A DNA stretch of 32,741 nucleotides, from NCBI GenBank assembly GCA_003163855.1, contig PLRJ01000206.1, positions 1 through 32,741 of the forward strand, read 5' to 3'. Origin of the DNA: Bryobacterales bacterium. Its GTDB lineage: Bacteria; Acidobacteriota; Terriglobia; Bryobacterales; Bryobacteraceae. Both the position numbers and the translations under genes were made by a program. Below the pieces are notes generated by a model. That model searched no databases and was not told where the DNA came from. It saw only the letters and a list, made by a program, of their open reading frames with translations. Below are positions 1,609-25,251 of the stretch, one piece after another (within the stretch, counting starts at the first letter, position 1; each line of letters begins with the position of its first letter).

Positions 1609-4041
1609 TTAGAAGCTGAATTGCACGCCGCCTTTCGCCACAAAGCCGGGCGTGGGAAATCCGTCTTCGAAGTAGATCTGATTAGCCAGGTTTTCAAGGC
1701 GCGCGTAGATTCGGAGTTTCATCCGCTCACCCAGCGGCTGGGTATAACCGATGGTTGCGTTTACTTTTCGCGGACCCGCAAAAGAATAAGCCAGCACATT
1801 GTAAGGAGGCAGCGAATTGTATAGCGGGAACAGAAAACGGCTGGCGGCCAGAAAATCGACCGATGTGTCCCAGTGCCTTCCAAACGACTTCATCACAATG
1901 AGCGCAAACGTTTGCGGCCAAATTCCAGGCGTCTGCAATTGGCCATCGCTGTATTGGGAGATTCGGTCTATGGAACTCGTATAAGTGTAGCCAGCGCGAA
2001 TGATCATTCGGCGCCGCAGTTTTGCTTCCGCCGAGACTTCTACGCCGCGCGCAAGGCCGCCGGGAGTGTTGTAGTAGCCGCCGTAGCGGCCATAAGGGTC
2101 GGCAGACGGATTGATTAAGATGCCAGGGTCGTAGCCGATGGTTTCCTGCAGACGGGTATAGAAATAACTCGCGCTGATCTTAATTTGGTCCGAAGCGAAG
2201 TATTGATCGAAGCCAAAATCCAAGGAGATGGCGCGCTCCGGACTAAGACGCGGATCGCCATAGGCGGAGAACGAACTACCGTAGAAATAAGTACCGAAGC
2301 GTTCGTACAATGACGGTGCGCGATAAGCATTACCAACGTGTGAACGGAATTTTGTGTTGGTGGAACGGATAAAGTAGGCGAGCGATGCATCGCCAGTGAA
2401 TGCGCTGGGCGGCGAAGTTGCCGAGGCCGAGGCATACACGGGAAACACACCGGAGAATGTTGGTGCGCTTAAATCAAACGCCTGCCATCTGCCGGACAGA
2501 GAAATCTGCAGCCGGTCATTCAGCAACTTTGTTTGATCCTGCACAAACGCGGTGTTACTGGATTGGAGCGCGCCGGTGCTCGACACGAAAACGGGCATTT
2601 GTCCGGTATACGAGGGGCTTGAATAGGTTTCACGCTCAAACTCGTAGCCGGCCGATAGCAACTGGCTATGAACTGGCTGCCATTCGAGCGTTGCATTCGC
2701 CGTGTCGGTGCGGCTGTCGTACCTGGTGGAGGTTCTGTCAAACGGTTGATAGCCCAAGCCCAGCGGGCCGTTCACGTAATTTCTGTTGGTGTCGAGATCC
2801 TGAAAATTAAGCCGGTAATGCAAGTTCGGAAGGATTTCGTGTTCGGCATAAAGCAGCGTTGAGATGAAACGGACGACCCGGTAGTCATCCGAATCTCCAT
2901 ACGCCGGAATGAAGGTAGCGTTGCCGAAATTGAACGGAGCCCCCAAGGAGATGCTTGCTACCGCAGCCGGTATCTGGCTGACAGGAAGCGCAATCGCGTT
3001 GATTGCGCCAGTTGCATTTACAGCAGGAGGCAGCGGAATGGGATTGTCTTGTAATTGTCCAAATGTGCCGGCACCAATGATGCGGCCGCCAATGCGCAAT
3101 GCCGGCTTCAGCAAATATTCAAGCGAGCCCAAGCCGCCGTTGTTGCGATATTGGCCGTTCCCGTCGACGCCATTGGCTACCTCCACATGACCGAAGCCGG
3201 CCGAATAGAAAAGTCGATTGCGAACGCCGCCTGCGAGATGGACTTTCCCAAGAAATTGCCCCAACATGCCACCCTGCAGATCGATGTCGCCATGAAATGG
3301 GCCGCCGCCCTGATCAGTCACCATATTCACGACGCCCCCGATTGCATTGGTGCCATAGAGAGACGCTCCAGCGCCCTGCAAAACCTCCACTCGGGAAGTA
3401 TCGGCAAACCAGAGATCACTCAAGAATGTACTGGCGTCGCCCTGCGTCGCCGAGACATCGCGCAGGCGCATGCCGTCGACTAAAATCGACGTGTCAAACG
3501 ATCGCAAGCCGCGAATCTGAATGTTGGCAAAACTGCCCGGGCCGCCTTGCTGCGAGACTCTGAGGCCCGGCGTCAGACTCAACGCGGACACAAGCGAATC
3601 GCGCCCTTGCGCTTCCGCTTCTTCGACGCTTACGACGTTCGTTTCCTTCGATGTTTCGCTCGCCGACTGCGGAAACCCGTTGCCTGTGACGGTGACTTGC
3701 GATGACGTCGGGGCAATTTCCAGGACCAGATCGGGCAGTTTTTCAGTTGAGTCAGTGAGGTTCAGGCTCTGTGCACTTGTCATCTGCCCGTTCAGCGCAT
3801 CGGCCTGGAGCAAATAATCGCCCCTGGTTAGTTGAACGAAACAATAGCGTCCTGTTTCGTCGCTTTGTGTTGTCAGCTTTGTTTCGCTGTCGCGCGAATA
3901 AATTGTGACGTTGGCGTGCGCGACCCTTAGAGCGGATGCGTCGAACGTGCGGCCGCAGACTTGTTGCTCAGCGTGCGCATAGAAAGGGTTGAAGACCGTA
4001 AAGGCGGCCGCAGCCAAAGAAATAAAAAGACGATCAATCAT
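1609..4041 (-). CDS. btuB: TonB-dependent outer-membrane receptor, BtuB-like
   Basis: This 810-residue outer-membrane barrel is expected to import cobalamin with energy from TonB. A signal peptide (about 1-24, ending AHA) is followed by a carboxypeptidase-regulatory-like module (about 25-95, with DETGRYCFVQLTRGDYLL). The plug has VVSVEEAEAQGRDSLVSALSLTPGL, the IQIRGLRSFDTSILVDGMRL segment and VEVLQGAGASLYGTNAIGGVVN. The strand-rich barrel ends in the aromatic C-terminal signature VQFSF. The frame extends to a GTG at 4056, but that GTG lies against the ribosome site GGGAGAGG that serves the ATG at 4041, so I take the ATG. A cobalamin riboswitch lies directly upstream. The regulatory-like module is unlike enterobacterial BtuB but common in acidobacterial receptors. 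Confidence 0.88.
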   Translation of the reverse strand: MIDRLFISLAAAAFTVFNPFYAHAEQQVCGRTFDASALRVAHANVTIYSRDSETKLTTQSDETGRYCFVQLTRGDYLLQADALNGQMTSAQSLNLTDSTEKLPDLVLEIAPTSSQVTVTGNGFPQSASETSKETNVVSVEEAEAQGRDSLVSALSLTPGLRVSQQGGPGSFANIQIRGLRSFDTSILVDGMRLRDVSATQGDASTFLSDLWFADTSRVEVLQGAGASLYGTNAIGGVVNMVTDQGGGPFHGDIDLQGGMLGQFLGKVHLAGGVRNRLFYSAGFGHVEVANGVDGNGQYRNNGGLGSLEYLLKPALRIGGRIIGAGTFGQLQDNPIPLPPAVNATGAINAIALPVSQIPAAVASISLGAPFNFGNATFIPAYGDSDDYRVVRFISTLLYAEHEILPNLHYRLNFQDLDTNRNYVNGPLGLGYQPFDRTSTRYDSRTDTANATLEWQPVHSQLLSAGYEFERETYSSPSYTGQMPVFVSSTGALQSSNTAFVQDQTKLLNDRLQISLSGRWQAFDLSAPTFSGVFPVYASASATSPPSAFTGDASLAYFIRSTNTKFRSHVGNAYRAPSLYERFGTYFYGSSFSAYGDPRLSPERAISLDFGFDQYFASDQIKISASYFYTRLQETIGYDPGILINPSADPYGRYGGYYNTPGGLARGVEVSAEAKLRRRMIIRAGYTYTSSIDRISQYSDGQLQTPGIWPQTFALIVMKSFGRHWDTSVDFLAASRFLFPLYNSLPPYNVLAYSFAGPRKVNATIGYTQPLGERMKLRIYARLENLANQIYFEDGFPTPGFVAKGGVQFSF

Positions 4042-4072
4042 CGTCACCTCTCCCACGAAGGTGTTTTGGAAC

Positions 4073-4093
4073 TCGAAACCGTTTTAGTTTCGA
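4073..4093 (-). promoter_or_regulatory. Hairpin between riboswitch core and btuB ribosome site
   Basis: A perfect 7-bp inverted repeat (TCGAAAC / GTTTCGA, 7-nt loop) lies at the 3' edge of the cobalamin aptamer, about 20 nt before the ribosome site of the receptor gene. It touches the last bases of the aptamer, so it could belong to the expression platform by competing with the closing helix. There is no T-run after it, so control of translation is more likely than termination. That role is inferred. Confidence 0.4.
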
Positions 4094-4285
4094 CTGATGG
4101 CAGGTCTTCGGACTCACAAGCAGGTCCCGTTGCCGGGTTTGCCTAGTTGCCTCCGCTTCCCAGCCAATGGGCCAGTGCGTTGTGGTGAGGCGTTCGTTCT
4201 TGTTTACCGCTGCGGGGCAGTTCCGGATTTGCACCGGATTCCCTGTTTCCACGCCAATTAGATTGGCGAACCAACAGCGTCCGTA
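4092..4285 (-). ncRNA. Cobalamin (adenosylcobalamin) riboswitch
   Basis: Read on the minus strand, this leader holds the classic B12 aptamer landmarks in order. They are a hairpin CGCCAAT/ATTGGCG, then ACAGGGAA, the B12-box half GGTGCAAATCCGGAACTGCC with CCGCAGCGGTAA, an internal GCACTGGCCCATTGGCTGGGAAG block, and the 3' motif GAGTCCGAAGACCTGCCA. It lies between bluB and the BtuB-like receptor and ends about 50 nt before the receptor start. The family normally represses downstream transport genes when adenosylcobalamin is bound. Here it would control the receptor, the binding protein and the ATPase. Exact ends are approximate. Confidence 0.95.
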
Positions 4286-4301
4286 AGATTAGCACGAAAG
4301 C

Positions 4302-23555: not shown

Positions 23556-24635
23556 CTATACGGGGAGCTCTTGGGACGTTATCTCATACTGAAACGTATC
23601 GGGGCTTAGACTGTCGATGCGGCCTTCGCTGGTTTCAGCCTGAGGATAGAGCAGGAAACTGAGGCGCTCGCCAGTCGTTCCGGGCAGCGCGACATCACCG
23701 CCGTAGTTAAAGGCCATCCAATTCATTTCCCACGACCCGAACAGCCGTTCGCGCGCCTGCCTCACCTTCGGATCGTCAAGTGACAAATTGCCGGGTGGCT
23801 CCTCTAGAACGACTTTTCGCACATCGGCGGGATCGACCGGCACCCAGCCATGACTTTCGAGGTAGACCTCGGCACGGCAGTGCTGCGCCTTGGTGACGTT
23901 TTCCGAGGAGGCACCGAGACTCTTAAAGCCCAGCTCGGACTTGGCGGTGCGAATGCCGTAAACATCTCGGGCGGGGAGCCCTGACGCACGAGCAAGACCG
24001 ACGAAGAGGGCATTGAGGTCGGCGCATTTGCCACCCAGATCGTGCGATTCCAGCATAAAGCGGATGTTACCGTTACCGCAGCCGCGCGTCCTGGGATTTC
24101 GAAAGGTATTTTCGACGACCCAGTTGTAGATGGCGCGAGCTTTCTGGAGGTCGGTGACGCAGCCGTTGGTGATTTGGGTTGCGGTCGCGTTTACGATGCC
24201 GTCGGTCGGCAGCATCCTGGTGGGCCGGCGAAAGTTATCGAGCTCGGCGCGACTCACTTGCGCCGGTTTGCCGGCAGCGGAAAGATCGACGGAATAGTTC
24301 TTGGTGGAGACGCGACTGGTGAGCGTGATAGCGGGGGTTGTTCCCGGCGGGAACTCGGCAGTTAGAATTCCCAGCCCGTCGGCCTTGAATTTGACCATTC
24401 TGGCGGTGCCGTTCTCGACACTGAAGCGATTCGACAGAGTTCTTTGAAATGGAGTCTCGACGATGAGAGCCGCCGGGAGCCAGACGCGAGTTGCGCCTGA
24501 AGGCTTGAGCACCTTAACACGAGTGGTGACTTCAAACGTGCGCCAGCCGGCAGCAGATCCCTTACCATTAAGTGCCCAGGCGGCAGAAAGACCGGCGGTA
24601 GATTGTAGAAAACGACGGCGATTCACAACCGACAT
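23556..24635 (-). CDS. Tat-exported transglutaminase-like protein
   Basis: This 359-residue protein has a twin-arginine leader (NRRRFLQSTAGLSAAWAL at 5-22), so it is exported folded. The catalytic triad of the transglutaminase core is visible: Cys204 in LGGKCADLNALFVGLARASG, His252 in AQHCRAEVYLESHGW and Asp268 in VPVDPADV. The upstream ~150 residues form a beta-rich domain (VKVLKPSGATRVWLPAAL) as in other bacterial transglutaminase-like proteins. Members act as peptidases, amidases or cross-linkers, and the substrate here is unknown. The frame extends 27 codons further up, but the ATG at 24635 starts one base after the AhpD-like stop (TAAAATG) and right before the Tat motif, so it is the likely start. 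Coupling to the AhpD-like gene implies co-expression. Confidence 0.85.
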   Translation of the reverse strand: MSVVNRRRFLQSTAGLSAAWALNGKGSAAGWRTFEVTTRVKVLKPSGATRVWLPAALIVETPFQRTLSNRFSVENGTARMVKFKADGLGILTAEFPPGTTPAITLTSRVSTKNYSVDLSAAGKPAQVSRAELDNFRRPTRMLPTDGIVNATATQITNGCVTDLQKARAIYNWVVENTFRNPRTRGCGNGNIRFMLESHDLGGKCADLNALFVGLARASGLPARDVYGIRTAKSELGFKSLGASSENVTKAQHCRAEVYLESHGWVPVDPADVRKVVLEEPPGNLSLDDPKVRQARERLFGSWEMNWMAFNYGGDVALPGTTGERLSFLLYPQAETSEGRIDSLSPDTFQYEITSQELPV

Positions 24636-24636
24636 T

Positions 24637-25251
24637 TTAGCCGGGCGGGGGTTGAGAACTGCGTGAATAGCCGTGAATTGCCGATCGTTTTGCGCCTGCC
24701 GCATGAGCTTCGTCACTCATGGCATGCACGCCGCTCGCGTCAATCCAGCGATTGTAGAAATTGAAGAGCGCACAGGCCGTGATGGCGTAATAGATGGCCT
24801 CATCGGTGAAGCCGGCGGCGTGTAAGACCTCGATATCGGCGGGCTGAACGTTGTACGATTCATGATTGACTTTCTTGAGAAAGCGCAGCAGAGTCTTTTC
24901 AGGTTCTGAAAGAAGGGAGGTCTCGAGATCGGCGAGGACGCTCGCCACCAGTTCCTTGCTGCCTAACAATTCCGCCGCGACCGCGGCGTGCGATTTGGTT
25001 CAAAAGGGGCATTGGTTCAAGTGCGAAGTGTAGGCTGCGATGAGTTCCCGAAAGCCTGGTGACAGGGGAGCGGGTTCACGCAGAATCTCCTGGGTGAAAC
25101 GTTCCAGGTGGACTGTGGCGTGAATTTTGTAGGAGAACATGTGCAGAATCTGCGGGTATTCAGATCCCGCGCGCTTCATCACATCGATAGCGCGAGTGTA
25201 ATTGTCATCGCCTTTGTGCGCTTCGACGTCCGCTAGAAACATGTGGTGCAT
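24637..25251 (-). CDS. AhpD-like (carboxymuconolactone-decarboxylase fold) protein, probable CxxU selenoprotein with in-frame TGA
   Basis: Two frames, 25251-25003 and 24999-24637, are in phase and separated only by a TGA at 25002-25000. Read through, they give one 204-residue protein of the peroxidase-related AhpD-like family, with YTSHLNQCPF before the TGA and TKSHAAVAAELLG after it. Relatives have CPFCTxxH here, a CxxCxxxH redox site, so the TGA takes the place of the second cysteine (residue 84) and would give CPFU. The flanks are intact: VEAHKGDDNYTRAIDV upstream, and PADIEVLHAAGFTDEAIYYAI with ALFNFYNRWID downstream, all family landmarks. A SECIS-like hairpin follows the TGA. The start region has ATGs at 25251 and 25242, no ribosome site, and a TATACT box 6 nt upstream. 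A nonsense mutation or sequencing error is the main alternative. Confidence 0.75.
24973..24988 (-). promoter_or_regulatory. SECIS-like hairpin downstream of the in-frame TGA
   Basis: On the minus strand, CGCCGC-GGTC-GCGGCG forms a perfect 6-bp stem. The GGUC loop lies 18-21 nt after the TGA, inside the range known for bacterial SECIS elements, and resembles the loop of E. coli fdhF. A weaker lower helix (CAAAT with AATTG, one mismatch) may extend it. The stem falls in Ala codons, so chance pairing is possible. Confidence 0.55.

Follow-up and report, generated by a model that had tools for sequence, protein, structure and literature searches.

Selenocysteine (Sec)-containing relatives of AhpD form a known protein family. 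In the excerpts of earlier reports drawn on here, the 'AhpD-like protein, TIGR01926, CxxU' stands among the known selenoprotein families in a 2026 review (PMC13188914), with MCB9421940.1 as one of the sequences given, 27 AhpD-like sequences (COG2128) with CxxU come from the Sargasso Sea (PMC1088965), AhpD-like 1 and 2 are given with CxxU (PMC2398784), and PMC1794560 lists two AhpD-like COG2128 selenoproteins and, in another count, four selenoproteins of Acidobacteria that belong to three families. Here we analyze a stretch of 32,741 nucleotides (positions 1 to 32,741 of contig PLRJ01000206.1 in the Bryobacterales assembly GCA_003163855.1; hereafter the window), which carries on its minus strand an AhpD-like gene (24637..25251) with an in-frame TGA codon. 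We hold with high confidence that this is an intact selenoprotein gene with an AhpD-like product, the UGA being predicted to encode Sec. The first-pass annotation, made from the sequence alone, had proposed a probable new selenoprotein. Since the protein passes the TIGR01926 model (peroxidase-related enzyme; 91.8 bits against a curated cut-off of 81.8), which the excerpt of PMC13188914 already catalogues as a CxxU AhpD-like selenoprotein, the novelty holds for the member and not for the family: the gene is an added member, in an acidobacterial lineage. In the library searched here for selenoproteins with Acidobacteri, Solibacter or Bryobacter, none of the listed titles and abstract openings describes it.

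Gene structure and the in-frame TGA codon

The gene has 204 codons and closes with a TAA stop at 24639-24637. Its frame, read on the minus strand from 25251 to 24637, contains exactly one internal stop, the TGA at 25002-25000 (residue 84), in agreement with the earlier description of a single TGA (CPF-U-TKSH) inside an otherwise intact AhpD-like gene. The predicted selenocysteine, U84, takes the place of the second cysteine (Cys) of the CxxCxxxH motif within the context C81-P-F-U84-T-K-S-H88, and the CMD domain PF02627 is present in the protein. Three further residues of the putative active site were located on the same strand. Cys81 (codon 25009..25011), conserved in at least 90% of the rows of an 88-row alignment, is predicted to resolve the bond within the CxxU pair, whereas Glu69 (25045..25047), invariant in that alignment, and His88 (24988..24990) are the predicted glutamate and histidine of a proton relay.

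Conservation of the TGA codon and downstream selection

We compared the gene with 110 close ortholog loci, comprising the best 30 from a search of 237 genomes of the bacterial family and the best 80 of 162 from a contig scan; this set is biased to close relatives and its two collections partly overlap. The best match of every one of these loci (110/110) has TGA at site 84. To these we added 36 further stretches picked to cover non-TGA and distant forms. Over all fetched loci, paralogs included, the site codon is TGA in 129 entries, TGC in 25, TGT in 4 and TCC in 1, so that the 30 non-TGA entries encode Cys (29) or serine (Ser; 1) and never tryptophan (Trp). The alignment with Cys-bearing homologs thus places the TGA at the redox Cys of the family. 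For the codons past the TGA, comparison with 29 orthologs gave a proportion of nonsynonymous differences (pN) of 0.11-0.26 and of synonymous differences (pS) of 0.57-0.85. Because pN is low relative to pS, the part downstream of the TGA is most likely translated and under purifying selection.

The loci from the contig scan have titles that are mostly Acidobacteria. Six TGA orthologs (L080, L083, L090, L116, L119 and L124) lie on contigs titled Chthoniobacterales, Gemmatimonadetes (three), Proteobacteria and Cyanobacteria, which may reflect either interphylum transfer of the gene or misbinned or misnamed assemblies.

A quick tree was built from 121 of 223 rows. Of the 120 listed homologs (the best 120 of 1768), it does not include the 22 that carry Trp at this position or the six without a motif match (P0006, P0010, P0017, P0032, P0037 and P0100). 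At least ten changes between Sec and Cys are needed on this tree, of which the starred branches force only two. The Cys-bearing copy of genome G178 sits among Sec forms, and its position suggests that Cys has replaced Sec there. A distant AhpD-like paralog (L167, G211:C37; 35% identity) has a TGA after CFF, followed by a GGTC-type hairpin sequence; it groups with otherwise Cys forms, and a separate origin of Sec is possible there.

The SECIS-like hairpin and its covariation

A hairpin resembling a selenocysteine insertion sequence (SECIS) lies at 24973..24988 (minus strand), where a 6-bp stem (CGCCGC/GCGGCG), opened by the third base of the His88 codon, encloses a GGUC loop. The first-pass annotation had described this stem and loop correctly but had placed the stem 17 nt from the TGA; that distance belongs to the loop, and the stem begins 11 nt past the TGA. 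The constraints applied to bacterial SECIS elements, coded here from the excerpt of PMC13188914, are a loop of 3-9 nt that begins 16-37 nt from the UGA, a stem of 4-16 bp, a G in the first two loop positions and an energy of at most -7.5 kcal/mol. The hairpin satisfies all of them as coded (GGUC loop, 6 bp, 17 nt, -10.8 kcal/mol). Among the relatives, the same constraints are satisfied by 123 of the 129 TGA entries (103 distinct gene sequences), as compared with 2 of the 30 non-TGA entries. The joint conservation of TGA and hairpin is far beyond chance.

The stem pairs the third bases of codons +4/+9 and +5/+8 relative to the TGA, and the third bases of codons +6 and +7 close the loop. In the 84 distinct orthologs that encode HAAVAA, the +6/+7 pair is G-C in 50 and A-U in 34, with no mismatch; shuffling gave 43.5 paired sequences on average and reached 84 in none of 10,000 trials. 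The +5/+8 and +4/+9 pairs are Watson-Crick in 83 and 79 of the 84, respectively, both beyond 10,000 shuffles. As shuffles ignore kinship, the covariation was also tested on a 101-row tree in which 83 rows encode HAAVAA. For +6/+7, where each position changed 13 times overall, all seven independent switches on supported branches were concordant (p 0.016). Switches were too few for significance at +5/+8 (three the same, one with no difference) and at +4/+9 (one the same, one with no difference). Most non-TGA homologs are without the hairpin, and the +6/+7 pair forms in only 4 of 17 homologs with Cys or Ser. Because the protein sequence explains none of this covariation, it represents unusually clean evidence for a SECIS element.

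Selenocysteine machinery in the genome and the bacterial family

The assembly that contains the window (89% complete, 253 contigs) encodes SelA, SelB and SelD, each scoring above its own cut-off, and a tRNA-Sec with the anticodon UCA (73.6 bits, above cut-off), so the complete set of genes that the first-pass annotation proposed to look for is present. The genome also carries, on contig C25, a formate dehydrogenase-type gene (L176 1261-3753, plus strand) with an in-frame TGA at 1921. This codon lies within QARI-U-H, which we take to be the Sec site of the formate dehydrogenase family, and is followed by a fitting hairpin whose loop begins 18-19 nt past the TGA. The best stretch of the gene scores 165.3 bits, which is under the TIGR01591 cut-off. 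It is likely a second selenoprotein gene.

Among the 237 genomes of the bacterial family, 110 have a match that contains a TGA. The genome tallies were transcribed by hand, and the resulting list puts 51 genomes under the SelB cut-off, one more than the 50 implied by the program's tally; the position of the TGA was verified for the fetched rows, and at least G101, G140, G188, G198 and G219 have partial or split TGA matches. SelB alone is a poor marker of Sec use, since related GTPases match in all 237 genomes (E 0.001), and SelA was therefore added to the tally. SelA or SelB is above cut-off in 108 of the 110 TGA genomes. Conversely, 28 of the 30 genomes with neither protein above cut-off are without a TGA match (Fisher p 8e-7). 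The non-TGA form alone was found in 10 of the 237 genomes, two of which have neither SelA nor SelB above cut-off: G178 (Cys, 97% complete) and G045 (Ser, 98% complete). The G045 copy (L149) has the Ser codon TCC at the site, neither Cys nor Sec.

Taken together, the machinery, the conservation of the TGA, the downstream selection and the synonymous-position covariation argue that the gene is recoded and not broken, as first proposed. Of the conditions named at first as refuting it, neither missing Sec genes nor broken close relatives spoke against it when checked; both the TGA and the downstream frame are conserved in relatives.

Proposed mechanism and alternative readings

From these data we infer the insertion of Sec, a catalytic role for each of the residues and the kind of substrate, as follows. 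The SelB/tRNA-Sec system encoded by the genome would decode the lone in-frame UGA as Sec, and the hairpin, whose stem begins 11 nt past this codon, likely directs the insertion. The product would be an all-helical AhpD-like protein of the peroxidase-related TIGR01926 group. Within the AhpD active site, its CxxU selenol would most likely be the attacking group, Cys81 would provide the resolving thiol, and Glu69 and His88 would relay protons. A hydroperoxide or another oxidised substrate would thus be reduced, and the enzyme would be re-reduced through a selenenylsulfide.

The alternative that survives best concerns function and leaves the selenoprotein intact. The CxxU protein may act as a thiol-disulfide or reductive dehalogenase-type enzyme and not as a peroxidase, perhaps on a metabolite handled by a major facilitator superfamily (MFS) transporter in some relatives; we regard this as possible but rather unlikely. 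An MFS transporter gene lies directly downstream, on the same strand, in 30 of the 76 loci whose sequence extends more than 1200 nt beyond the site; two of these proteins were scanned. Such genes directly downstream include L080 3578-4822 and L055 866-2152 (both plus strand), and an MFS transporter is also found downstream in three Cys loci (L139, L141 and L142). There is none at L056, nor beside the gene in the window. We tentatively put forward a broader proposal, which we consider doubtful as a whole. It holds that the Sec clade of TIGR01926 is the usual form in the acidobacterial family, that its SECIS element is built into paired synonymous third bases, that Cys or Ser can replace Sec upon loss of the machinery, and that the enzyme acts with the neighbouring carboxylate-type MFS transporter on a specific metabolite, not on general peroxides.

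It is very improbable that the UGA is read as Trp, or by near-cognate read-through, without selenium and with a hairpin that only promotes read-through. Judged by the motif, gene calls of the Joint Genome Institute (JGI) do put Trp at this position in 22 of the 120 listed homologs (best 120 of 1768), including P0002-P0004, but translation under code 4 is the best explanation. The family has its redox Cys at this position, with 29 Cys, one Ser and no Trp among the non-TGA entries; moreover, the genome has the Sec machinery, and the hairpin is lost in most Cys forms. Least likely of all, with only a minimal chance, is a decaying pseudogene or a sequencing error, in which the TGA would be a nonsense mutation or a base-call error in an AhpD-like gene: the stop is single and premature, some relatives have Cys at the site and the assembly is fragmented (253 contigs), but the same TGA recurs in all 110 close ortholog loci (overlapping collections; the 129 TGA entries are 103 distinct sequences), pN is low downstream and the covariation is synonymous. 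Pseudogene, sequencing error and Trp read-through are all rejected here on the grounds of conservation and covariation.

Several observations weigh against the interpretation as a selenoprotein with peroxidase activity. The hairpin taken by itself is weak evidence, because a fitting downstream hairpin occurs at 39 of the 1007 TGA triplets of the window (both strands) and the 48-nt stretch is no more stable than shuffled versions of itself (as good in 65 of 200 cases; z -0.36). The case is therefore carried by the relatives. Even among these, 6 of the 129 TGA entries fall outside the constraints as coded. Two genomes, G072 and G140, have a TGA match and neither SelA nor SelB above cut-off. G072 has two SelA pieces on separate contigs. 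In G140 (85% complete), SelA gives no match and SelB only one below cut-off (E 4.3e-57); this genome remains an exception, because G045, without SelA above cut-off, reaches a comparable SelB match below cut-off (E 4.9e-58). A TGA match is absent from 99 genomes that do have SelA or SelB, and 8 of the 10 non-TGA-only genomes retain SelA or SelB. Thus the form of the gene is not simply tied to the machinery, and loss of the machinery is not the sole route to Cys. Furthermore, the neighbours of the gene in the window are not conserved, and the predicted peroxidase activity derives from homology alone.

Other features of the window

A gene for a transglutaminase-core protein (24635..23556, minus strand) begins 1 nt past the stop of the selenoprotein gene; by eye, its product has a Tat-like N-terminus (RRRFLQ). 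Neither this gene nor the divergent P450 gene has a match in the other fetched loci L024-L169 (flanks of about 1.5-3 kb where the contig allowed). The search for a conserved operon partner in the window thus gave none, and neither gene was used for predicting function. Elsewhere in the window, a cobalamin riboswitch (4082-4290, minus strand; 110 bits) is located upstream of a long frame (4056..1609) that by eye has the look of a TonB-dependent receptor.

Significance and comparison with known systems

This selenoprotein gene is conserved over many genomes of one bacterial family, yet JGI calls place Trp at its key site in some of the listed homologs, and splitting or truncation by other annotators is to be expected. 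Since Cys and Ser forms occur, including two from genomes where neither SelA nor SelB passes its cut-off, the lineage offers a natural test of the benefit of Sec in an AhpD-type active site.

In the predicted model of the protein we found the AhpD fold and the E/C/C(U)/H active-site spacing. This spacing, E-12-C-3-U-4-H, is presumably that of Glu118/Cys130/Cys133/His137 in Mycobacterium tuberculosis AhpD, an enzyme that we take to have Cys where the protein described here has Sec; H137 is named in a PDB title among the fold-match listings. The two proteins share 15% identity, and the place of His132 of the M. tuberculosis enzyme is taken here by Phe83. Identity to the peroxidase-related structures 6k40, 2prr, 2oyo, 2pfx and 3c1l is only 20-24%, and 6k40 and 2pfx have Cys at the Sec site. 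The AhpD-related (seleno)protein NF041238, for which a table in the excerpt of PMC13188914 gives the motif CFYUT, has an AhpD-type domain and CxxU in common with our protein. However, our protein scores 39.7 bits where the cut-off is 175, and its match is confined to positions 211-339 of that 357-position model, which places it outside NF041238. The closest counterparts are the AhpD-like CxxU selenoproteins (COG2128/TIGR01926) of the Sargasso Sea and Global Ocean Sampling (GOS) selenoproteomes, which share with the present gene the family model, the CxxU motif with its second position predicted to be Sec, and a SECIS-type hairpin, whereas the gene described here belongs to a lineage titled Acidobacteria by its nearest loci.
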